The notes below the pieces were generated by a model. The model made no database searches, was not told the origin of the DNA, and saw only the letters and a list, made by a program, of their open reading frames with translations. DNA of 48,483 nucleotides from Sulfurimonas sp. (GTDB lineage Bacteria > Campylobacterota > Campylobacteria > Campylobacterales > Sulfurimonadaceae), in contig JAOTSA010000004.1 of the NCBI GenBank assembly GCA_030247515.1, positions 1-48,483 of the forward strand, read 5' to 3'. Below, piece by piece: positions 13,791 through 47,692 of the stretch. Each line of letters starts with the position of its first letter. Position 1 is the stretch's first letter. The position numbers and the translations under genes were made by a program.

Positions 13791-16700
13791 ATGTTGCGAC
13801 GTTTCTTAGAGTTTGCTATAGACAAGCCGCTTCTCAACCATATCTTTTTAACATTTATTTTTGTACTCTCCGTTTTTTCTTACATAAACATCCCAAAAGA
13901 GATTTTTCCGCCCATGAATATGGACAAAGTAACCATCTCTGGCGGATATGCGGGTACTTCAGCAGATGTTTTAGACAAAATGGTGGTTAAGACCATTGAG
14001 GACGATTTGCAAAATATTGCAGAGATAGAGACCATAAAAACAACCATCAAAAATGGCTCTTTCTCAATCATAGCCGACATCAAAAGAGGCTCTGACAATG
14101 TTAATGTTCTAAACGATGTAAAAGATGTTGTTGGAAGCGTTAAAAAAGATTTACCAGCCGATATGGCTGAACCAATTGCGCAGATTAAACTGCATACTTT
14201 TCCATTGGCACTTGTTGCGTTGGCAGGAGATAGACCAAAAGAGGAGCTTTTGGAGCGTGCCCAAGAGCTTAAGAGTGTGCTTAGTAAGTTTAAAGACCTT
14301 AGTGAGATAACTATCCGAGGAGATGCAGAGGAAGAGCTTGTTATCAACATCAATGAGCAAAAAATCTTAGCGTATGGGCTACAACCTGCTTTGGCGATAG
14401 AAGCTATCAAAAATATCAGCTCTGTTTTTCCCATCGGAACTATAAAAGAACGTGGTTCTCATCTTTATATCTCTACATATAATGGAGAAAAAAATAGAGA
14501 AGCTATAGAGAGTACACTTTTAAATATTGGCGGCGCAAAGGTTCGCATAGGGGATATAGCAGATGTAGCATTTCGGTTGAGTGATGAGTCGGAACTCTCC
14601 CACTATAACGGGATAAGAAATATCTCTATCAATGTTGCAAAATCACAAGATGGCAATGCGATTGCTTTGGTAAAAGAGATACGCACGCTTTTGAAAGAGC
14701 AGGAAAAACTCCATCCAGAGCTTCAGTATGAGATTTATGCGGACACATCAGTGTGGATAAAAAACCGTTTAAATACAGTTTTTTCAAACATAGTTTTTGG
14801 TCTTGCTCTTGTCTTTTTGGCGATGCTGCTTTTTATCAACTCTGGGATTGCCATCGTCGTTGCTGTTGGTATCCCTGTGAGTTTGATGACAGGGCTTATA
14901 GTAACGGAGATGATGGATGACAGTCTCAACATGCTCTCTTTGCTTGGCGCACTTATAGCTCTTGGTATGCTTGTGGATGAAGCCATTGTTGTTGCTGAAA
15001 ATATCTACCGACACCTAGAAGAGGGGATGGAGCGTAGAGAAGCGGCTATCGTAGGGGCTTTGGAGATGTTCCCAGCGGTTCTCACTGCAACGCTTACTAC
15101 TGTTTTTGCATTTTTACCGATGTTGTTACTAAGTGGCGAGATGGGGATGTTTATCAAAATCATTCCTATCATGATAACGGTACTTCTCCTCTCATCTCTT
15201 TTTGAGGCATTTTACTTTTTGCCTCTTCATGCGCATGATTTTTTAAGAGTATCACATAATGAGAGTTTTACAAAAAAACTTTGGGCAAAGCTCTCATCAT
15301 GGCATAACGCTGTTTTGCACTTCTTTTTCAAAAGAAAATGGCTCTCGCTTATCGTTATGGTTGTAACAATTCTCTCTTTAACGGCAGTAATGCTCAAAAA
15401 CTCAAAGTTTCAGCTTTTTCCAGATTTTGATACAACACAGGTTCATGTTTACGGAAAAGTCAATGTAAACAACGAGCTTGAAGACACCGAAAGGATAGTC
15501 ACTGAGCTTGAGAATGAACTTCTAAAACATATAAAAGGTGATGATATCTCCTCCATCACGTCCGTTATCGGTTTTAAACTTGATTCTAAAAATATAGTAG
15601 AAACAGGTAATCATCTTTTTCATATCTTTATCGACTTAAGCGAGCGTGCGCCAGATAATGTGTTTGATAAGTATATTAGCCCGTATATCTCTTTGGAGTA
15701 TGATGAAGATCTGCTTAAAAGAGGAAAAGATGCCAGAGAGATAGCAGGGGATGTAGAAAAAGTTATTGCGCCATTTTATGGACTCAAAAAAGAGGAGAAT
15801 CTTGTTTTTGAAGAGCTTGTTGTCAAAGTTCCAGGAGCAGGGGTTATTGCTTCGGACATTGAGGTTAGTTTGAGCGTAAAAGAGGAACAAAAAGTAGTGC
15901 ATGGGGTAGAGGAACTACAAAATGTTCTAAGAGCTATAGATGGCGTGAGCAACATATCCAACGATGCAACTCTTGGCGAAAAAGAGCTGAAATTGCGTGT
16001 AAATGAGTACGGACAACAGCTTGGATTCAATGAAGAGCTTATCTCCAGAGAGTTGCGCTCCTACTATCTCAAAGGCGAATACGGTAAGATGTTCAATGAG
16101 AGCGGACTTGTACGCATCAAGATAGAGAGCAGTATCAACGAGCAGATAGATTCTATCAACAGAGTTGAGGTACAGATACCATCATCAGATAGATTTGTAC
16201 TTTTGCGTGAGGTGTGTGATTTTGTGATGACGCAGGGTTCTGTCACACTGCAAAAAGAGAATGGAGTACGCATCAGAACAGTGATGGCTTCGCTGGATAA
16301 AAAAAAGATAACATCAGCCGAGGCGATGCAAAAACTTCAACCAACATTTGCAAAACTTAAAAGTGATGGTTTTGTTGTAGATATCAAAGGTGAAGAAAAA
16401 GAGAATGCAAAAAACAAAAGAGAGATGCTTCAAGCTGCACTTATCGCCATTTTTCTCATCTTTATAACACTGGTTTGGCTTTTTGATTCGATTAAAAAAT
16501 CACTTATAGTGATTAGTACTATCCCGCTTGTTTTGCTTGGTGTTTTCTTTGGGCATATGGTAATGGGCATAAACCTTACAATGCCAGGGATGATAGGTGT
16601 AGTAGGACTTGCAGGGGTTGTTGTCAATGATGGTCTTATTGTGGTAAGTTTTATTAGAGATGCAAAAAACACAGAAGAGTTGATGCAGATGGCACAAACA

Positions 16701-16925
16701 AGATTGCGACCGATTATTTTAACCTCACTAACCACTGTTCTGGGGCTTGCAACACTTATCTTTTTTGCATCTGGACAAGCTATGATACTCCAGCCAATGG
16801 CAATCTCTCTAGGTTTTGGCATAGCATGGGCAACAGTACTCAACCTTATCTATGTGCCGCTTCTCTATGCAGTGGTTTTCAAAATCAAAGATGCTGATAA
16901 ATCAGAAAAATCTAAGCTCATCTAA
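13791..16925 (+). CDS. RND-family transporter (HAE-1/AcrB-like), no partner genes adjacent
   Basis: The protein has 1044 residues in two homologous halves, each with one helix, a large periplasmic region and a group of helices. The first TM4 segment is LGMLVDEAIVVAENIYRHLEEG, where AcrB has DD and here D-E is found. The second-half equivalent is AGVVVNDGLIVVSFIRDA. The HAE group exports hydrophobic or amphiphilic compounds with a membrane-fusion protein and a TolC-type channel. Neither gene is next to it. It lies 9 nt after the ftsL-like gene with AAGGG before the ATG. Substrate is unknown; lipid or envelope-component transport is another possibility. Confidence 0.85.
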   Translation: MLRRFLEFAIDKPLLNHIFLTFIFVLSVFSYINIPKEIFPPMNMDKVTISGGYAGTSADVLDKMVVKTIEDDLQNIAEIETIKTTIKNGSFSIIADIKRGSDNVNVLNDVKDVVGSVKKDLPADMAEPIAQIKLHTFPLALVALAGDRPKEELLERAQELKSVLSKFKDLSEITIRGDAEEELVININEQKILAYGLQPALAIEAIKNISSVFPIGTIKERGSHLYISTYNGEKNREAIESTLLNIGGAKVRIGDIADVAFRLSDESELSHYNGIRNISINVAKSQDGNAIALVKEIRTLLKEQEKLHPELQYEIYADTSVWIKNRLNTVFSNIVFGLALVFLAMLLFINSGIAIVVAVGIPVSLMTGLIVTEMMDDSLNMLSLLGALIALGMLVDEAIVVAENIYRHLEEGMERREAAIVGALEMFPAVLTATLTTVFAFLPMLLLSGEMGMFIKIIPIMITVLLLSSLFEAFYFLPLHAHDFLRVSHNESFTKKLWAKLSSWHNAVLHFFFKRKWLSLIVMVVTILSLTAVMLKNSKFQLFPDFDTTQVHVYGKVNVNNELEDTERIVTELENELLKHIKGDDISSITSVIGFKLDSKNIVETGNHLFHIFIDLSERAPDNVFDKYISPYISLEYDEDLLKRGKDAREIAGDVEKVIAPFYGLKKEENLVFEELVVKVPGAGVIASDIEVSLSVKEEQKVVHGVEELQNVLRAIDGVSNISNDATLGEKELKLRVNEYGQQLGFNEELISRELRSYYLKGEYGKMFNESGLVRIKIESSINEQIDSINRVEVQIPSSDRFVLLREVCDFVMTQGSVTLQKENGVRIRTVMASLDKKKITSAEAMQKLQPTFAKLKSDGFVVDIKGEEKENAKNKREMLQAALIAIFLIFITLVWLFDSIKKSLIVISTIPLVLLGVFFGHMVMGINLTMPGMIGVVGLAGVVVNDGLIVVSFIRDAKNTEELMQMAQTRLRPIILTSLTTVLGLATLIFFASGQAMILQPMAISLGFGIAWATVLNLIYVPLLYAVVFKIKDADKSEKSKLI

Positions 16926-35297: not shown

Positions 35298-38200
35298 ATG
35301 ATGATAAATAAACTTATAGATACTGCCCTTAAATACCGTGTTTTGGTCCTTGTAGCGTTCCTTGCTGTTATTGCTTTTGGAATAAAATCATATCATGAGA
35401 TACCTGTTGATGCATTTCCGGACATTACTCCAAAGCAGGTCGTCATTTATACCGAAAGTCCCGGTAATTCCGCCGAAGATATTGAAAAACTAATCACCTA
35501 TCCGATTGAATCAGCACTCTCTGGTATGGCAGGTGTCAAAATGATTATGTCCAACTCTATTTTTGGACTTTCCTATGTATCCATCTTTTTTGAAGACAAT
35601 ATGGACATCTATTTTCTCCGCCAGCTGGTTAATGAACGCCTAAGCGGTGTTGAGATACCACAAGGATGGGGAAAACCTGCACTTGGTCCCAATACCACAG
35701 GTCTTGGTCAAGTATTTTGGTATCAAATTCAGGATAAAACAGGACGATTTTCACTTAGCCAACTGCGAGAGCTCCAAGAATATGTCGCAGCTCCATTATA
35801 TAAAAGTGTATCGGGGGTTGAAGAGGTTACGGGATGGGGAGGTCATGAAAAGCAGTATGATGTACTCATCGACACACAAAAGCTTCAAGATTTCGATATA
35901 ACATACGATAGTGTGGTTAATGCTTTACAAAAAAGCAACAGTGCGGCAGGAGGACAATATCTCGAATTTAACCAAGAGCAATATCTTATACGAGGCGTAG
36001 GTCTTTACAGTTCATTGGATGATATTCGAAATACTCCAATAAAACATCTAAACGGGGATTCTATAACCATTAACGATGTCGCAGAAGTAAAAGAAGGGAC
36101 ATCGCCACGATTCGGAGCGGTATCGGTTGATGGAAAGGAAGCTGTTATGGGGATGGTGTTGCAACGCACCCAGACCAATGCGGCTGATGTTGTCGAACAA
36201 CTCAAGGCAAAAACAAAAACAGTCAACGCAACGCTTCCAGAAGGTGTCAGCATCAAACTTTTATACGACCGCACAGAAATAACAAAAAAAGCTGTTGATA
36301 CAATGGATGTGGCGCTGCTGGGCGGAATGATACTTGTAGGCATCGTTCTATTCTTATTTTTATTTGAGTTGCGCTCGGCATTTATTGTTATTCTCTCACT
36401 TCCCGTTTCATTGCTAATAGCTTTTTTACTAATGGATTATTATGGACTTAGTGCCAATTTGATGAGTTTAAGCGGTCTGGCTATTGCCGTGGGAATGATT
36501 GTAGACGGAACGGTTGTTATAGTTGAAAACAGTTTTAGAAAGCTGCATGATCACCCAGAATTATCACATTTTGAGGTAATTTCAGAGGCAGCCAAAGAGG
36601 TTTCAACACCGGTAACCTTTGCGATTTTAATAATTGCCGTTGTTTTTTTGCCGCTGCTCAGCCTTGATGGTTTAGCCGGAAAACTCTATGTTCCGATGGC
36701 ACTTAACATAACATTTGTTATGCTGGGTTCGCTTGCGGTTGCCCTTATTTTAGTACCTGTTTTAGCAACTTATCTGCTAAAACCAACGACTCATCACGAT
36801 AATATTGTTATGCGTGCGCTTAAGAGACGATACACTCCGATGCTGAACTTTGCACTATCTCATGCCAAAATGTTGCTTGGGGGAACATCTATCATCTTTT
36901 TAGCTTCTATTGTAATGCTAACTCAGCATGGGCGTGAATTTATGCCAGAACTAAACGAAGAGTCAATTATGTATCGTGTCACTTCTATCCCCGGTACCAG
37001 TTTGTCGCGCTCAACACAGACCGCTCAAGAAATAGAAAGCTTCATACTTAAACACCACAGTAATGAAGTAGAGTCGGTTTTATCAATGATTGGACGGAGT
37101 GAAAAAGGAGAAACCGCACAAGCAAACTACATGGAGGTGCTTTTAATACTAAAGCCAACCATTGAAAACTATGAAGCTCTTTCCAAGCAGATTGACACCG
37201 AACTTGATAAAGAGTTTGAATTTGTCCAATTTACACCGACTCAGCCAATAGCCATGAGGATTGAAGAGCTGCTTGAAGGAGTAAAAGCCGAACTTGCAAT
37301 CAAAATCTACGGTGAAGACCAAAAAACACTCCAATCCATTGCAAATGAGATACAAGAGAGCATCGGTTCTATAAGCGGGGTTCAAGGCATAGAGGTTGAA
37401 TCTCAACTAGGACAGGCTCAAATCAAAATCGAACCTGATTATGCCGCCCTTGCACGACATGGCATCGGTGTAGATGAAGTAATGGAGATTATTCGCTACG
37501 GCATCGGAGAAGAGCCTGCCACCTATATGATTGAAGGTGTGCGCCGCTATGGTATAGTGCCGAAAATCAAAGATGCGAAAATTGACATTGAAACAATAAA
37601 AAATATTCCAATACGCTCACATAATGAACAAATTGTTACACTCGAGCAAGTTTGTCATATCGAAACAATCCAAGGTCCTTCATTTATTAAGCGTGAAAAT
37701 ATGAGCCGCTATATGGTGCTATCCATTGATGTTGAGGGGCGCGATATTGCCTCATTTGTCAAAGAGGCGGATTCACTCATAGACAAAAACATCAATATGC
37801 CAGATGGCTATTATCTGGGGTGGGCAGGAGATTTCAAAAATATGCAAGAGGCAACACAAAAGCTGCTTATCATTATCCCTATTACACTGCTGTTAATAAT
37901 CCTGCTTTTATATATGGCATTTAATTCGCTCTCTAAAGCAGGGCTTATTTTACTTAATGTTCCATTTGGATTAATAGGCGCCGTTGCCGCACTATTGATC
38001 AGCGGCGTATATTTATCGGTTTCTGCAATTGTCGGATTTATAGCCATCTTTGCAATTGCGGTTCTTAACGGAATCGTTTTGGTGAGTTTTATTGATGAAA
38101 TGAGAACAAAGTTCCCAGATGTAGATCTAAAAGAGGTAGTTAAAAATGCAACGCTTCTTCGTCTGCGTCCGGTACTCATGACTGCTTCTACTGCGTTGCT

Positions 38201-38363
38201 TGGAATTTTGCCTTTACTCTTTGCCACAGGTGTCGGAAGTGAAATCCACTACCCTCTTGCCGTCGTAGTCACAGGGGGAATCATAAGTTCTACAATCTTA
38301 ACTCTGCTGATATTGCCATCTACTTATTGGATGTTTTATCGTAAAGTTTCTACAAAACTATAG
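35298..38363 (+). CDS. czcA: Heavy-metal RND efflux pump, CzcA/CusA-like
   Basis: The protein has 1021 residues and the two-fold RND layout. The HME signature at TM4 reads GLAIAVGMIVDGTVVIVENSFRKL. N-terminal VDAFPDITPKQVVIYTESPGNSAEDIEKLITYPIE is typical of the heavy-metal group. The group moves Co2+, Zn2+, Cd2+, Ni2+ or Cu+/Ag+ out of the cell using the proton gradient. The TM4 motif lies between classic CzcA (DFG-x-x-VDG) and CusA types, so the metal cannot be named. Codons such as CCG, GCC and ACC appear more often than in the neighbouring housekeeping genes, which may reflect transfer. Confidence 0.92.
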   Translation: MMINKLIDTALKYRVLVLVAFLAVIAFGIKSYHEIPVDAFPDITPKQVVIYTESPGNSAEDIEKLITYPIESALSGMAGVKMIMSNSIFGLSYVSIFFEDNMDIYFLRQLVNERLSGVEIPQGWGKPALGPNTTGLGQVFWYQIQDKTGRFSLSQLRELQEYVAAPLYKSVSGVEEVTGWGGHEKQYDVLIDTQKLQDFDITYDSVVNALQKSNSAAGGQYLEFNQEQYLIRGVGLYSSLDDIRNTPIKHLNGDSITINDVAEVKEGTSPRFGAVSVDGKEAVMGMVLQRTQTNAADVVEQLKAKTKTVNATLPEGVSIKLLYDRTEITKKAVDTMDVALLGGMILVGIVLFLFLFELRSAFIVILSLPVSLLIAFLLMDYYGLSANLMSLSGLAIAVGMIVDGTVVIVENSFRKLHDHPELSHFEVISEAAKEVSTPVTFAILIIAVVFLPLLSLDGLAGKLYVPMALNITFVMLGSLAVALILVPVLATYLLKPTTHHDNIVMRALKRRYTPMLNFALSHAKMLLGGTSIIFLASIVMLTQHGREFMPELNEESIMYRVTSIPGTSLSRSTQTAQEIESFILKHHSNEVESVLSMIGRSEKGETAQANYMEVLLILKPTIENYEALSKQIDTELDKEFEFVQFTPTQPIAMRIEELLEGVKAELAIKIYGEDQKTLQSIANEIQESIGSISGVQGIEVESQLGQAQIKIEPDYAALARHGIGVDEVMEIIRYGIGEEPATYMIEGVRRYGIVPKIKDAKIDIETIKNIPIRSHNEQIVTLEQVCHIETIQGPSFIKRENMSRYMVLSIDVEGRDIASFVKEADSLIDKNINMPDGYYLGWAGDFKNMQEATQKLLIIIPITLLLIILLLYMAFNSLSKAGLILLNVPFGLIGAVAALLISGVYLSVSAIVGFIAIFAIAVLNGIVLVSFIDEMRTKFPDVDLKEVVKNATLLRLRPVLMTASTALLGILPLLFATGVGSEIHYPLAVVVTGGIISSTILTLLILPSTYWMFYRKVSTKL

Positions 38364-40402: not shown

Positions 40403-40969
40403 ATGGCAACTGTAGGAATGAGTGATATCAAAAAAAATGTGCGTCTTATAATCGGTGAAGTACCGTATAAAGTCGTCGAGTTTCAACATGTTAAACCAGG
40501 TAAAGGTGCGGCATTTGTTCGTATGAAAGTGAAGAGCTTTTTAAACAATAAAGTTGTTGAAAAAACTGTACATGCTGGCGATAAGTTTGAAGTTCCTGAG
40601 ATAGCTTACAAAACAATGCAGTATCTTTATGATGATGGCGAGGCGTTTCAGTTTATGGATCAAGAGTCTTACGAGCAGATATCTCTCTCGTACGAGCAGT
40701 GTGACGACGCTTCAAAATGGTTCAAAGACGGTATCAATGTTGATATCATCTTTTACAAAGGAAACGCTATCTCTGTAACTGCTCCTGAAGTTATGGAACT
40801 CCTTATTACCGATACACCGCCAAACTTCAAGGGCGACACATCAAGCGGTAGCAGAAAACCTGCAACGCTAGAGACGGGTGCAGTTGTTCAAGTACCTTAC
40901 CACGTTTTAGAGGGCGACACAATCAGAGTAAATACTGTTGATTGTGAATACTTAGAAAAAGTGAAATAA
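40403..40969 (+). CDS. efp: Elongation factor P
   Basis: This 188-residue, three-domain translation factor rescues ribosomes stalled on polyproline. The tip of domain I carries VKPGKGAAF, with Lys34 as in E. coli, the residue lysylated by EpmA. The C-terminal signature NTVDCEYLEKVK is close to the family end. A hairpin follows the stop. Confidence 0.96.
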   Translation: MATVGMSDIKKNVRLIIGEVPYKVVEFQHVKPGKGAAFVRMKVKSFLNNKVVEKTVHAGDKFEVPEIAYKTMQYLYDDGEAFQFMDQESYEQISLSYEQCDDASKWFKDGINVDIIFYKGNAISVTAPEVMELLITDTPPNFKGDTSSGSRKPATLETGAVVQVPYHVLEGDTIRVNTVDCEYLEKVK

Positions 40970-40975
40970 ATCCTC

Positions 40976-41003
40976 TTTTGATGCGAGTTTTCTCGTGTCA
41001 AAA
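40976..41003 (+). terminator. Terminator hairpin after efp
   Basis: TTTTGATGCGAG pairs with CTCGTGTCAAAA (12 bp with two G-T wobbles) over TTTT. A run of six T follows 5 nt further on. On the minus strand the two wobbles become mismatches, so the plus-strand direction is favoured. Confidence 0.55.
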
Positions 41004-41012
41004 ACCTCTTTT

Positions 41013-41705
41013 TTAGTCAATCAAAACCTCTGCTATCGTAAAATCAATCTCTTCATCAATATCTATAGAACTTTTTCTGTCCATTTTGTAAGCAAAAATA
41101 TTATCTTTAAGAAAAAAACTTTTCTCATCCAAAAGTTTATCTGTTTTGCAGATGTAAATCGCACCGTTTATTCTGTAGCATGGTTCTAAATCTTGGCTTC
41201 GTTTGTTGAGTGTCTCGTCTCTTAAAAATCTACTCATGTTTATGTCTTGTGGCAAAGTGTTGCTCCAAAGCGGACTGTGTTCCATCTCGCATACACCGAC
41301 CACGGCATCTGCATTTTTAGCCAGAAGCAGTTCTATGGCTTCATCTATGTGTTTTTCATCTCTAAGCGGACTTGTTGGTTGGAGCAAAACTATATAATCA
41401 TACTTTTTAAAGTTGTCTATCGTGTGCTTAATGGCATCAAAAGTTGTGGCAGTGTCACTTGAGAGTTCATCTGGGCGTTTGATGGTTTGTGCGCCGCAGA
41501 GTTTTGAGATATTTAGTATCTCCTCATCATCGCTGCTTACAACTACTTTGTCAATATATCTGCTTTTAATCCCTGCTTCTATGCTCCATGTTATAAGTGG
41601 TTTTCCGCATAAATCTAGTATGTTTTTTCTAGGTAATCTTTTGCTTCCGCCTCTTGCAGGGATAATTGCTAAAAAAGTTTTATTTTTTTCTATTTGATTA
41701 TTCAT
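41013..41705 (-). CDS. Acylneuraminate (nonulosonate) cytidylyltransferase
   Basis: This 230-residue CMP-sugar synthetase has the nucleotide loop AIIPARGGSKRLPRKN and the motifs VVSSDDEEIL, LLQPTSPLRDEKHID and YRINGAIYI. Metal-binding Asp residues are in SSIDIDEEIDF. It activates a nine-carbon acidic sugar (sialic, pseudaminic or legionaminic acid) with CTP. The sugar cannot be decided. In this phylum such sugars decorate flagellin, LOS or capsule. Unexpectedly it sits 2 nt after an outer-membrane barrel gene of a two-component locus, away from other sugar genes. Confidence 0.85.
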   Translation of the reverse strand: MNNQIEKNKTFLAIIPARGGSKRLPRKNILDLCGKPLITWSIEAGIKSRYIDKVVVSSDDEEILNISKLCGAQTIKRPDELSSDTATTFDAIKHTIDNFKKYDYIVLLQPTSPLRDEKHIDEAIELLLAKNADAVVGVCEMEHSPLWSNTLPQDINMSRFLRDETLNKRSQDLEPCYRINGAIYICKTDKLLDEKSFFLKDNIFAYKMDRKSSIDIDEEIDFTIAEVLID

Positions 41706-41707
41706 GT

Positions 41708-42520
41708 TTAAAATGTATAGCCAACATAGGCTGAGATTGATTTGTCGCTGGCTGAGTCACTTAGACCATGTCCGTAATGTCCGCCAATATTCCAACTGTT
41801 GTCAATCATATAAGTGTATCCGAGGGAGAGATATTTTATGGTTTGGGTTGAGGTGTAAATACTCTCATTTTGGTAGTAAGCCGCACTTAACGCTGATTTC
41901 TTGCTAGGTTGTATATATTTTGCACCAGCATAAAATCCATAGCTGTTTTGGTACTTCTCCTCTGTAACGTCACTGTCATTTACCAATGTATAGTTGCTTC
42001 CAAAAAATAGCGAAAATCTACTGTTTAAATCATAATCTAAATCAACTGATGCCATATAGTCAGTCTCTTCATTGTTGTATGTACTTTTGTATGTTGGCAA
42101 GATGAGTCCAACTCCAGTTGTTATGGAGAGCTTTTCGGTTGGGGTAAATCGGTACATGATACTTACTGATGTATCTTCCAAACCACTTTTTGACTCCACA
42201 CCATCATCGGACTTGTAGTGTGATGCGACCAACTGAAACCACCATCTTCCTGTGTAAATATCTGCTTGCAGTGAGCTGCTTAGAGTGTCGGATGGCTCTT
42301 GAGAAGCATAGTTGATTTGTGAATAGCCCATGCCAAAAACCAAATCATAGGAGATTTCAGTTTCAGTACTTTTTATCATGCATCCATCCGCATCGACCAA
42401 GTCGCTTAAAGGTGTTTGCGGGCAGAGATCATACGCATCTTCTACGCCATCAAAATCACTATCAACATAGGCATAAGAGGAGGTTGTCATACACAACAGA
42501 GCCAATACTAAGCGATACAC
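41708..42520 (-). CDS. Outer-membrane beta-barrel protein with a thrombospondin-3-like calcium motif
   Basis: GTG-initiated, 270 residues. The signal peptide ends about TSSYA. A short acidic repeat DSDFDGVEDAYDLCPQTP follows, typical of type 3 calcium-binding loops found before OmpA- or porin-like domains. About 200 residues then show alternating aromatic/hydrophobic strands, such as YDLVFGMGYSQINYAS, RWWFQLVASHY and FSLFFGSNYTLV. The protein ends with GYTF, and a terminal Phe is the usual barrel insertion signal. The family is not identified. Its start overlaps the previous small gene's stop by one base. Confidence 0.7.
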   Translation of the reverse strand: MYRLVLALLCMTTSSYAYVDSDFDGVEDAYDLCPQTPLSDLVDADGCMIKSTETEISYDLVFGMGYSQINYASQEPSDTLSSSLQADIYTGRWWFQLVASHYKSDDGVESKSGLEDTSVSIMYRFTPTEKLSITTGVGLILPTYKSTYNNEETDYMASVDLDYDLNSRFSLFFGSNYTLVNDSDVTEEKYQNSYGFYAGAKYIQPSKKSALSAAYYQNESIYTSTQTIKYLSLGYTYMIDNSWNIGGHYGHGLSDSASDKSISAYVGYTF

Positions 42521-42852
42521 TACTGTTTTCCTTGCTGTTTTTGACCGCCAAAAGAGCCGTTGTGATGTTTGGAGTGTTGCATCAAACCGCCATTTTCTTG
42601 AGAGTTGCCTTGATGAAGCTTTAGTTGTCCTTTGTTCGCAGAATCGCCTCTACTTTGTTGAAGAGTGTTGAGTGCGTTGGCACGGTCTTTCTCATTCATA
42701 GCCGCTATTTGGGTTTTTAGCTGGTTCATAAGTTTGACACGCTCCGAGGGCGGAGCGTTTTTTATCGCTTCTATCTGCTCATTAATGGATTCATCCCCAA
42801 AAAGAGTAGTACCAAGCAGCAACAAATAGAGTGGCATCATAAAATTTTTCAT
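42520..42852 (-). CDS. Small secreted Gln/Gly-rich protein paired with the two-component system
   Basis: The 110-residue product has a signal peptide (about 1-18). A helical part reads INEQIEAIKNAPPSERVKLMNQLKTQIAAMNEKDRANALNTLQ, and the tail (about 65-110) is disordered and rich in Gly, Gln, Ser, His and Lys. Its organisation resembles the 44611 product: signal, short helical pair with a P-x-E-R/K-D-R element, low-complexity tail. The two genes flank the kinase/regulator pair. This could be a periplasmic accessory protein like CpxP/Spy, but that is inference. Confidence 0.6.
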   Translation of the reverse strand: MKNFMMPLYLLLLGTTLFGDESINEQIEAIKNAPPSERVKLMNQLKTQIAAMNEKDRANALNTLQQSRGDSANKGQLKLHQGNSQENGGLMQHSKHHNGSFGGQKQQGKQ

Positions 42853-42889
42853 AAATATCCTTTAAGTGCAGAAGTTTGACATGAAAGCA

Positions 42890-43945
42890 TTAGTGTTTCG
42901 TTAGCGAGCCGAGTTCGAGAGTAAAAATAGTCCCTTTTGAGAGTTGGCTTTTTACGTCAATGGAAATTTTCAGCTCATCACAGAACTTTTTAACGATGTG
43001 AAGCCCGATACCCACTCCCCGTTCATGCTCTTTGTAAAATCGTTCAAATATCTTTTCTGGATGCGCAATCCCTTTTCCAGTATCTTGAATGTAGAGTTTG
43101 TTCTCTCTTGCGTCAATAGTGAGCGTAACAGAGCCATCATGTTTGTTGTATTTGGCGGCATTGCTTAGGAGGTTGTCAACAATGCGGATAAAAGCGTTTT
43201 GATTTGTGGTTAAGGTTATATTTTCTCCATTAAGTATAAAACGGATGGAGGGGTATAGCTTTTCTAGTGCCGTGATTCTGCCCTTTATCAGATGGTTTAG
43301 CTCAAATGTTTCAACCTGATAAATATGCTCTTCAAGATAGCTCCGCAAGTTGTCTCCAAGAGAGACAATGGTATCAATGCTCTGAAATATTCGATTTATT
43401 TTTTTTTCGTCATCCAAACTGGGTTTGAGAAGAGAGACATTGAGCCTGAGTGCCGAGAGCGGTGTGTTGAGGTCATGCAAAATATCACGGCTGAACTCTT
43501 GTGTTAGATAAAGCGCACGGCGCAGTGGATAGAGTGAGTAGAGTGAAAAAAGGGCTGAAACAACGGCAATAACCAAAAGTGCCAAACTATAGTAAAAGAC
43601 CAAATCATTGCGAATTGTTTCTATCATGATTTCGTATTGCGTGTTTGACAAAGAGAGCTTTAGCGCATAAGTATCATTTTTGGGAATCGAAAAAAGGACG
43701 AACATTTCAGTAGATATGCGTTGCAGTTCGTAGAGTTTGTTGGGATTTAACGGGACAAAATCGAACTCAAATTGAGTATATTTTAAATCATAACTGCACA
43801 GGCGCATCTGGTCGTATAGTTTTTCATCCAAATCGTGTTTGAGTTGGGTATATTGGAGGTAAAACAAAATACCGCTCAATATGCCTAGTGCGATAAAAAA
43901 AACTCCAAAGCTTTTAAAAAATGATTCGTATTCAGCTCTTTTCAA
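42890..43945 (-). CDS. Sensor histidine kinase
   Basis: The 351-residue protein starts with TTG (AGGA site). TM1 is at about 13-31, a periplasmic segment at about 32-112, and TM2 at about 114-136. The DHp His lies in ILHDLNTPLSALRL, an H-box variant with HDLNTP. The ATPase domain has N (IVDNLLSNAAKYN), G1 (DTGKGI), F and G2 (GVGIGLHIVKKF). There is no HAMP domain of full length. It overlaps the response regulator gene by 14 nt and so forms one operon with it. The signal sensed is unknown. Confidence 0.9.
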   Translation of the reverse strand: MKRAEYESFFKSFGVFFIALGILSGILFYLQYTQLKHDLDEKLYDQMRLCSYDLKYTQFEFDFVPLNPNKLYELQRISTEMFVLFSIPKNDTYALKLSLSNTQYEIMIETIRNDLVFYYSLALLVIAVVSALFSLYSLYPLRRALYLTQEFSRDILHDLNTPLSALRLNVSLLKPSLDDEKKINRIFQSIDTIVSLGDNLRSYLEEHIYQVETFELNHLIKGRITALEKLYPSIRFILNGENITLTTNQNAFIRIVDNLLSNAAKYNKHDGSVTLTIDARENKLYIQDTGKGIAHPEKIFERFYKEHERGVGIGLHIVKKFCDELKISIDVKSQLSKGTIFTLELGSLTKH

Positions 43946-44567
43946 TACGGTATCCTACCCCTCTGATGTTTTGGATATCCCATCCAGTTGTATGTTTGAG
44001 TTTGTTGATTGCAAAACGCAGAGCATTGTCGCTGGGATGCTCCATTAACTCAAAGAGACTCTCTTTTGAGAGAGTTCTTCCGATATTTGTGATAAAAAGA
44101 GCAAGAAAAGGGAGTTGAACTTCTCCAAGAGAGAGGGCATGACCTTGTTTTGTTACCTCTTTGCTTATTGGATTGTAGGTGATGTCGCCATATTTTATGA
44201 GCTGTGATTTTCGAGAAAAACGGGCTTCAATACGAAGCAAAAGCTCTTGCGGATAAAATGGTTTTTTGAGATAATCATCAGCTCCGACCAAAAAACCTTT
44301 GGTAATGGCAACGATGTCCGTCATCGCACTGATAAAGATTGCGGGGGTGTTATCCTCCGCATTTCGCAGGCTTTCAACCAAATCAAACCCATTGAGTATG
44401 GGGACGTTGATATCAAATATATATAAGTCATAACGGTTATCGTAAGCCGCATCTGCCGCCGCTTCCCCATTCATAACCCACGTACACCGATATCCGCCCT
44501 CACTAAGCATCTCATGTAAAGTCTCGCCGAGAACCAAATCATCTTCAAGCAGGAGTATGTTTATCAA
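43932..44567 (-). CDS. OmpR-family response regulator
   Basis: The 211-residue protein starts with TTG behind AGAGGA. The receiver domain has ILLLEDDLVLG, phospho-Asp in YIFDINVPILNGF, ISAMTD and DYLKKPF. The C-terminal winged helix (about 125-211) ends with WDIQNIRGVGYRIEKS. It is expected to activate or repress the flanking small-protein and barrel genes. The next gene upstream (44611-44922) is 43 nt away. Confidence 0.92.
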   Translation of the reverse strand: MINILLLEDDLVLGETLHEMLSEGGYRCTWVMNGEAAADAAYDNRYDLYIFDINVPILNGFDLVESLRNAEDNTPAIFISAMTDIVAITKGFLVGADDYLKKPFYPQELLLRIEARFSRKSQLIKYGDITYNPISKEVTKQGHALSLGEVQLPFLALFITNIGRTLSKESLFELMEHPSDNALRFAINKLKHTTGWDIQNIRGVGYRIEKS

Positions 44568-44610
44568 GTTGTTGCTTCCTCTGATTTTATATGCTTAATA
44601 GTAGCATAAA

Positions 44611-44922
44611 TTAGCGTCCGCCACGTCTTTGCATCCCGCCGCCTGTGCCAGAACCCATACTACCTTGAGAACCGCCTTGACGCATCTGTGAACCACTGCC
44701 GTCCATCGCACCTGATTTGCTCTGTTTCATGGTGCTTGTTGCGCTTTGACGCTCCTCGGGAGTCATCGCTTGCATACGTGACTTCATCTCTGTTTGAAAT
44801 GCAGCACGATCCTCTGTTGCTACTGTGCCACGCATCGTTTGCATCTCTTCAAGTGACATGGCAGAGTAGTCTGCCGCAATAACGTTTAGGCTCAACAGAG
44901 CGACAATTATAACTTTTTTCAT
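44611..44922 (-). CDS. Small secreted protein, DUF1104-like
   Basis: The 103-residue product has a signal peptide (about 1-17) and AADYSAMSLEEMQTMRGTVATEDRAAFQTEMKSRMQAMTPEERQ (about 16-59). This resembles the DUF1104 proteins of Helicobacter and Campylobacter, which are periplasmic and of unknown function. The tail is rich in Gly, Ser, Gln and Met. It lies directly before the regulator, is transcribed in the same direction, and mirrors the 42520 product on the other side of the two-component genes. Confidence 0.65.
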   Translation of the reverse strand: MKKVIIVALLSLNVIAADYSAMSLEEMQTMRGTVATEDRAAFQTEMKSRMQAMTPEERQSATSTMKQSKSGAMDGSGSQMRQGGSQGSMGSGTGGGMQRRGGR

Positions 44923-45106
44923 GGTTTATCCTTTTTGTTTTGATAGTGACAGTATGAGGCAAGTGCATTAGTGAAGTATTAGCGAATATCTGTTCTTTTT
45001 GGGAGTTGCATAAAAAACTTATATTATTTTTTGTTATTGTTATATAATAATTCTAATTTTATGAGAAAAAAGCTTATTGTTTAAGTTTAAAAATATAATT
45101 GGCAGT

Positions 45107-45112
45107 TATAAT
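45107..45112 (+). promoter_or_regulatory. Probable -10 element for the GGDEF-EAL gene
   Basis: TATAAT lies 33 nt before ATG 45146. Two similar hexamers lie upstream, at 45043-45048 and 45094-45099, so the site choice is open. Confidence 0.4.
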
Positions 45113-45145
45113 TCAATCCTTTTAAAATCGTAAAAAGTGAAAATA

Positions 45146-47692
45146 ATGCCTAGAAAATTAAAGAATTTTATCTTTTCTATCAATGTAGCACTCCTCTCAA
45201 CGCTCTTTGTTGTGGTTTTTGTTTTTACGGCATATCTCCATACGTTGTTAGCGCAAGAAAATGCTATAAAGCATGCAAATATAGTTTCAAATCAAATTTT
45301 CTCTTCCATGTATCAAGTGATGAAAAAAGGGTGGAGCAGAGAAGATTTAAATGATTTTATGCACTCCGTAAAAGAGAATTTTAACGATAGTGACTATACG
45401 GTCAATATCTATCGTGGCGAAAAAATCAAAGAACTATTTGGAGAAGTCAAAGAGAGACAAAGGGATGATTTGGCAAATACTGTTTTGGCAAAAGGAGAGA
45501 AGATAACGCTTACTGAGATGGGCAAACTTAGAAATCTTCTGCCGCTAAACGCCAAAAAAGAGTGCCTTAGCTGTCATGTAAATGCAAAAGCAGGCGATAC
45601 GCTGGGTGTCATAGATGTAGAGCAAAATTTTGTTGAAGTTATAAAAGAGACATTTTTGGATTATGTTTACTTTTTCTTGATTATTCTTCCACTATTCGCA
45701 TTTATAGCCTTTATAGCCTCAAGATATACAACTTCAAAGATAACAAATTCACTCAAACTATTTAACAAAAAAGTTCAAAATATCAACTCAATGAAAGATT
45801 TTAAAGAGTTTGACCCGATGGAAATTGACTTGAAATTTGATGAAGTAAATGAGATTATTGTACATGTAAATGAACTTGCGCAAAAGCTAAAAATTATCGC
45901 AGTAGATAAAGATTTGCTTGAGTTTGAAGTGCAATTGCTCGATAAGTTTATTATTACTTCAGAGGTTGTTCAGGATTGGCATGATTTTATCAATGAACTT
46001 TTGGTTGACATCAACAAAGTTATGCAGACATATACGCTTATGACTATTTTTAGAGTCGGCGATGACCAGTTTGAGGTGGATATATTTTGGTTTGGTGTCC
46101 CAAAAGAAGATGTGAAAGTTCTTTTTGAGATTTACGTAAGAGAAGCTATCAAAACAAGCAACCACTTCTTGGGATATACAGACTACTCTATCCGTCACAA
46201 TATCGCAGAGTTTAACCACCAAATCACAGTTTCGGAGTATGAAAACTTTGCCCACAGAACCAAATCTCTCTTTTTGGATAGCCCAAAAATAGGCGGTATC
46301 GTCGGACTTAGCGTGCAGTCGGACATGGCGGCTGACCCTATTAAGCATATCGTTATAGACAGTATCTTAACCACAATGGCAAACCTTGTAGGCTCTGTAA
46401 AAGCCATCAACAAATATACAAATGACTTAGAGTACTATGCAGCGCATGACCCGCTTACGGGGCTTTTTAACCAAAGAGTTTTTATTGACTTTTTGGAGTA
46501 TGAGATTAAAAGGGCAGAACCTCATGGCTATGAGTTTGCGCTTATGGTTATAGACTGTGACAACTTTAAACCCATCAATGACAAATATGGACACGCTTTT
46601 GGAGACCTCTTTTTACAAGAGTTCGCAAGAATTTTGTCAGAATCAAAAAGAGGCGAGGATATCCTCTCACGTTATGGTGGAGATGAGTTTACACTTATCT
46701 TGCCAGAGTGTGGTCTTGAGGGTGCTACCGCCGTTGCCCATGCTATCGCCAAAGCGGTAGAGGAGTTTAAGCTTCTTACAACCGATGGAAACTACGCAGG
46801 TGTTACCGTTTCTATAGGAGTATCGGTCTATCCGCAGCATGCAACAACACAAAAAGAGCTTTTTGTGATAGCTGATGGCATGATGTATAAAGCAAAAGAG
46901 GATGGCAAAAACAGTATCAGAGTACCATCTGGCGATGATATCGTTACCATGATAAAAGAGCAAAAAGCCAAGTCTGCACTCCTCGTGGATGCAGTTGCGA
47001 ACAACCGCATCGTGCCATATTTCCAACCTATCCAAACCACACTTAGCGGTAAAAACGAGATTCATGAGCTTCTTATGCGCATTGAAGTGGATGGTAAAAT
47101 CGTTCCTGCATATGAGTTTATAGAAGTGGCAGAGAGCATGAGCATCATCAACCGTATGGATTTGATGGTTATAGAAAATGCGTTTAAAAAGATAAAAGCG
47201 GAGAGTTACGAGGGCATTTTGTTTATAAATCTCTCCCCAAAATCCCTTGTCGTCGGTAACTATGCAGAGGCAATAACACAGCTTATCAAGCAGTATGAGA
47301 TATCAAAAGACCATATAGTTTTTGAGATAACAGAGAGAGAAACGGTCAAAAACTTTTCTGTATTGGAAAAATTTGTTATGAACTTAAAAATGGCTGGATA
47401 CAAGTTTGCCATAGACGATTTTGGTTCAGGCTTCTCATCGTTTCACTATATCAAAAAATTCCCGATTGACTACCTCAAAATTGACGGCGAGTTTATCATC
47501 AACATCAATAAAGATAAAAAAGACAAAGCTTTTGTTCATAGTATCTTGACGCTTGCAAAAGAGCTAAATGTCAAGACTGTTGCAGAGTATGTAGAGGATG
47601 AAGAGATAGTAAAAACCCTAAAAGAGATGGGCGTGGACTATCTGCAAGGGTTTCACATAGGAAGACCGCAAAACTATTTTACAAGGTCATAA
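45146..47692 (+). CDS. GGDEF-EAL cyclic-di-GMP protein with a periplasmic CxxCH motif
   Basis: The product from ATG 45146 has 848 residues (a GTG lies 9 nt upstream). TM1 is at about 8-30 and the periplasmic domain at about 31-168. TM2 is at about 172-194, followed by a HAMP-like linker and a region of about 200 residues without clear family. The GGDEF domain has YGGDEF at about 510-515, with RGED (I-site RxxD) five residues before it. The EAL domain has ELL (for EAL) at 641, INLSP, FEITERE, IDDFGSGFSS, YLKID and YLQGFHIG, so catalytic residues are kept in both domains. The periplasmic part ends with CLSCH (codons 45563-45577), a c-type haem-binding motif. Confidence 0.9.
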   Translation: MPRKLKNFIFSINVALLSTLFVVVFVFTAYLHTLLAQENAIKHANIVSNQIFSSMYQVMKKGWSREDLNDFMHSVKENFNDSDYTVNIYRGEKIKELFGEVKERQRDDLANTVLAKGEKITLTEMGKLRNLLPLNAKKECLSCHVNAKAGDTLGVIDVEQNFVEVIKETFLDYVYFFLIILPLFAFIAFIASRYTTSKITNSLKLFNKKVQNINSMKDFKEFDPMEIDLKFDEVNEIIVHVNELAQKLKIIAVDKDLLEFEVQLLDKFIITSEVVQDWHDFINELLVDINKVMQTYTLMTIFRVGDDQFEVDIFWFGVPKEDVKVLFEIYVREAIKTSNHFLGYTDYSIRHNIAEFNHQITVSEYENFAHRTKSLFLDSPKIGGIVGLSVQSDMAADPIKHIVIDSILTTMANLVGSVKAINKYTNDLEYYAAHDPLTGLFNQRVFIDFLEYEIKRAEPHGYEFALMVIDCDNFKPINDKYGHAFGDLFLQEFARILSESKRGEDILSRYGGDEFTLILPECGLEGATAVAHAIAKAVEEFKLLTTDGNYAGVTVSIGVSVYPQHATTQKELFVIADGMMYKAKEDGKNSIRVPSGDDIVTMIKEQKAKSALLVDAVANNRIVPYFQPIQTTLSGKNEIHELLMRIEVDGKIVPAYEFIEVAESMSIINRMDLMVIENAFKKIKAESYEGILFINLSPKSLVVGNYAEAITQLIKQYEISKDHIVFEITERETVKNFSVLEKFVMNLKMAGYKFAIDDFGSGFSSFHYIKKFPIDYLKIDGEFIININKDKKDKAFVHSILTLAKELNVKTVAEYVEDEEIVKTLKEMGVDYLQGFHIGRPQNYFTRS

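Follow-up and report, generated by a model that had tools for sequence, protein, structure and literature searches.

A membrane GGDEF-EAL protein of Sulfurimonas with a predicted periplasmic haem-c Cache sensor domain

GSU0935 and GSU0582, two MCPs of Geobacter sulfurreducens, carry haem-c sensor domains (3b42 and 3b47, respectively) whose spin state depends on redox and which can bind NO as well as CO; in GSU0935, Met60 is the distal haem ligand and is replaced by CO and NO (PMC8396549). A membrane-bound sCache_heme protein binds NO and does not form a stable O2 complex, and haem-c Cache domains are found fused to GGDEF/EAL among other outputs, with Campylobacterota listed as enriched (PMC12889525). 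The phosphodiesterase RbdA is listed as responding to O2 and as sensing through a haem PAS domain (PMC8846402). Fusions of a haem-c Cache domain to GGDEF/EAL are already described, then, and the protein reported here is of that kind. Our literature search, which left most subscription papers out of reach, found no experimental study of its Campylobacterota subfamily. What is the periplasmic domain of this protein, and how might it act on c-di-GMP?

The window, by which we mean the whole analysed stretch of 48,483 nucleotides from Sulfurimonas sp., encodes the protein close to its 3' end (Table 1). The gene coordinates proposed in the earlier note, including the ATG start, are correct: ATG 45146 is preferred over GTG 45137, the choice of the mechanical ORF caller, because an in-frame stop lies just 5' of the equivalent ATG in homologues L007-L009. 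Within the first 430 residues no Pfam match reaches its cut-off.

Table 1. Features of the GGDEF-EAL gene and its product (window coordinates).
Feature	Position	Strand	Basis
Membrane GGDEF-EAL protein with predicted periplasmic haem-c sensor domain, 848 aa	45146..47692	+	ORF; Pfam EAL 4e-63, GGDEF 3e-47; start from homologue comparison
Transmembrane helix 1	45170..45238 (about residues 9-31)	+	hydropathy
Periplasmic sCache_heme-like sensor domain	45239..45649 (about residues 32-168, ~137 residues)	+	alignments A1/A2, AlphaFold, Foldseek, profile matches
Met59, invariant, predicted distal haem ligand	45320..45322	+	invariant in A1 and A2; aligned to Met60 of GSU0935
CLSCH, predicted covalent haem-c attachment motif (C140, C143, H144)	45563..45577 (residues 140-144)	+	direct sequence; conserved in homologues
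Transmembrane helix 2	45650..45730 (about residues 169-195)	+	hydropathy
Conserved cytoplasmic module, without family assignment	45719..46426 (residues 192-427)	+	44 invariant columns; first residues overlap predicted TM2 end
GGDEF diguanylate cyclase domain	46439..46912	+	Pfam PF00990
RGED, RxxD I-site	46649..46660 (residues 502-505)	+	direct sequence
GGDEF signature	46676..46690 (residues 511-515)	+	direct sequence
EAL phosphodiesterase domain, signature ELL at 47066-47074	46982..47668	+	Pfam PF00563; motifs; PA0861 alignment

The CLSCH motif lies between the two TM helices, about 25 residues N-terminal of TM2, and so close to the second membrane helix, as had been claimed. It contains both cysteines of the periplasmic domain, out of four in the whole protein, and any CxxCH arises in 0.015% of whole-protein residue shuffles. 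Conservation of CxxCH in orthologues, which the earlier note had proposed as a check, was followed in three sets that share genomes, the phylum set including the window. With residues 1-430 as query against 151 family genomes, 24 full-length homologues were found besides the window protein (40-92% identity over the N-terminal region), and CxxCH is kept in the window protein and in 24/24 of these. Profile A1, made from the periplasmic domains of c-di-GMP members alone, has matches in 176 of 298 phylum genomes. The motif is kept, in c-di-GMP proteins and MCP-like proteins alike, in 45/45 loci opened from this phylum-wide search, the window's own locus included, a count that covers the opened loci among the matches and is biased in that the search profile itself contains the motif. 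Among the named contigs (Sulfurimonas, Aliarcobacter, Arcobacter caeni, one Nitrospirae MAG and others), 26 of the 27 have CxxCH. The exception, L085 (5962-6684), reads CLGCN, with the motif His changed, and is further interrupted by an in-frame stop near residue 241; it is either a decayed gene or an assembly error. Of homologues lacking Cys or His, which would have spoken against haem, the three sets contain this one interrupted copy.

The window domain escapes easy assignment by family models: it scores 12.9 bits with PF11845 (Tll0287-like; gathering cut-off 24.1) and 14.9 bits with PF21563 (Mcp40H-20_sensor; cut-off 27), both below threshold, and 18 of 20 A1 members match PF11845 at E<=1, the best with E 4e-5. 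Low-scoring Pfam matches, TEBP_beta and Cas10 palm among them, were put down to chance or generic similarity. Profile A1 retrieved no relevant PDB entry, 3b42 not being found; a PDB sequence match required the MCP-like relatives, whose addition to A1 gave profile A2, and this profile matches 3b42 (E 5e-6) and 3b47 (E 5e-5), with weak similarity to Tll0287 itself (5b82, E 0.087). In an AlphaFold model of the periplasmic domain (pLDDT 86), whose top Foldseek match is again 3b42 (8.5e-5), CxxCH sits on helix 108-112, between strands 97-105 and 122-131. The TM-scores against 3b42 are modest (0.41/0.46), perhaps because the 3b42 structure is domain-swapped, and fold identity is not proven by them. 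Motif conservation, the A2 match to 3b42/3b47 and the top fold match together support the haem reading of the earlier note, and sequence and model point to a haem-c sensor domain, with the haem probably attached covalently to C140/C143.

Which residue might occupy the distal side of this haem? The invariant columns of alignment A2 are F31, M38, G41, P112, C119, C122, H123 and G133, of which M38 corresponds to Met59 in the full-length protein. The A2 profile alignment places Met59 opposite chain residue 26 of 3b42, which is Met60 of GSU0935, since the CxxCH His, chain residue 110, is His144 in PMC8396549. We predict that the haem c is ligated by His144 and Met59, the Met ligation being suggested by this correspondence. 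By analogy, the window protein may sense redox or a gas. O2 is the less likely stimulus, and NO is unproven because homologues do not occur preferentially with NirS: a comparison over 151 family genomes gave 15/25 vs 63/126 genomes (p=0.39), no significant association. The window genome itself encodes NirS (559-aa frame, N-terminal CQGCH) and has a 1050-aa frame of ResB type for haem-c assembly by System II.

That the output is c-di-GMP, a biofilm signal, is supported by strong GGDEF and EAL Pfam matches with active-site motifs retained, and the protein probably both makes and destroys c-di-GMP, as judged from its sequence. RxxD and GGDEF are intact in 25/25 sequences (the window protein and 24 homologues). 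The other EAL-domain motifs searched for (INLSP, FEITERE, DDFGSG, LKIDG, TVAEYVE and LQGF) are all intact, but the EAL signature itself reads ELL (ELLMR at 641), so that the claim of kept GGDEF, EAL and I-site residues stands except at this signature. ELL is also found at the aligned position in PA0861, the closest solved relative.

Between the membrane and GGDEF lies a module of 236 residues, in which 44 columns are invariant when 26 sequences are aligned and for which the window protein gave no Pfam match and no PDB sequence match. It occurs in 10 of 200 phylum genomes, once each and always in a frame of ~850 aa. A GAF domain was considered for residues 192-427 and rejected: the model is of low confidence (pLDDT 62.5), with no Foldseek match at E<=0.001, and the window protein has no Pfam match there. 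Within the 200 phylum genomes the module was seen only in the haem-c GGDEF-EAL architecture.

Taken as a whole, the protein is in our judgement probably an inner-membrane c-di-GMP enzyme governed by a periplasmic, Met-ligated haem-c Cache domain that responds to redox or NO; the computed basis of this explanation is the architecture, the motif conservation and the homology to known haem-c sensor domains. The enzyme, probably dimeric, would carry a single-Cache periplasmic domain with one covalent haem c, bound by thioethers to C140/C143 and with H144 as proximal ligand. In the reduced resting state Met59 would be the distal ligand, to be displaced by oxidation of the haem or by binding of NO (or CO), and its displacement would shift the long N-terminal helix, which runs on from TM1. 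The signal would then pass through TM2 and the cytoplasmic module and alter the balance between synthesis (GGDEF) and hydrolysis (EAL), with synthesis subject to product inhibition at the I-site. Covalent binding of the haem and its ligation by Met are inferences, as are the stimulus (NO or redox in preference to O2), the direction of the response and any effect on attachment or motility.

Could the enzyme work mainly in one direction? A real haem-c domain might control what is most likely a phosphodiesterase, its GGDEF serving as a GTP-binding regulatory domain, and we give this arrangement somewhat less than an even chance: PA0861, which we take to be the phosphodiesterase RbdA, is the nearest GGDEF-EAL relative of solved structure, but GGDEF and I-site residues intact in every sequence compared argue for retained cyclase activity. 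Possible, though we rather doubt it, is a sensor of redox potential only, in which electron flow in the periplasm or the quinone pool determines the oxidation state of the haem, this state is the signal, and no gas is bound in vivo. GSU0582 and GSU0935 have been proposed as redox sensors (-156 and -251 mV) with redox-linked loss of the Met ligand (PMC8396549), and the missing association with NirS fits such a role; however, NO and CO are ligands of both proteins too, and NO is bound tightly by a signalling sCache_heme protein (PMC12889525). We regard as very improbable a haem-free thiol/disulphide switch of the periplasmic CxxC pair, as in CSS-motif phosphodiesterases. Redox control of the CSS type has precedent among phosphodiesterases (PMC8846402) and the periplasmic cysteines number just two, yet the His after the second Cys and the distant Met are likewise invariant, and haem c is present in the best structural matches.

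If the Met-ligated haem-c sensor is indeed what governs this enzyme, c-di-GMP in sulphur-oxidising Campylobacterota would be coupled directly to periplasmic redox or nitric-oxide state. In the genome of the window, three more c-di-GMP proteins have a predicted haem-c motif of this kind, so haem c may be a main input to its c-di-GMP network: two (L001 and L002, on contigs C49 and C60) combine a Tll0287-like domain with GGDEF and EAL and have CxxCH near the N-terminus, and one (L113, contig C59) has CTNCH near the N-terminus and GGDEF. A PF07238 search of the genome found no PilZ receptors. More tentatively, Met-ligated periplasmic haem-c sensors might form a branch that extends across the Campylobacterota, lies mostly under Pfam thresholds and feeds c-di-GMP; in this subfamily the haem input would be joined by a second sensor module, cytoplasmic and exclusive to the architecture. 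Standard annotation misses this sensor branch.

No conserved operon partner was found across the homologue loci examined. The gene comes straight after efp in the homologues closest to the window, and efp was not seen beside the others; in the window, a sugar-nucleotide gene, a two-component pair and small secreted proteins (40403-45146) separate the two. A carbonic anhydrase gene (PF00484, 47745-48464) with an apparent N-terminal signal peptide is convergent with the GGDEF-EAL gene, and two RND-family (ACR_tran) transporters are encoded at 13791-16925 and 35298-38363.

How does the window protein stand beside the described systems? Like GSU0935 and GSU0582 (3b42, 3b47; cf. PF21563), its best profile and fold match, it has, flanked by two TM helices, a CxxCH domain predicted to be of the haem-c Cache/PAS-like type, and an equivalent Met at the distal position, where ligation is predicted; unlike theirs, which is chemotaxis signalling, its output is c-di-GMP. 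With the sCache_heme/Tll0287-like proteins (PF11845) it shares the canonical CxxCH and would share the fusion of signalling outputs to a haem-c Cache domain anchored in the membrane (PMC12889525), although the PF11845 cut-off is not reached. PA0861 has the same GGDEF-EAL tandem and ELL signature, but is a PAS-GGDEF-EAL protein of Pseudomonas aeruginosa, whereas the window protein would place its haem c in the periplasm.
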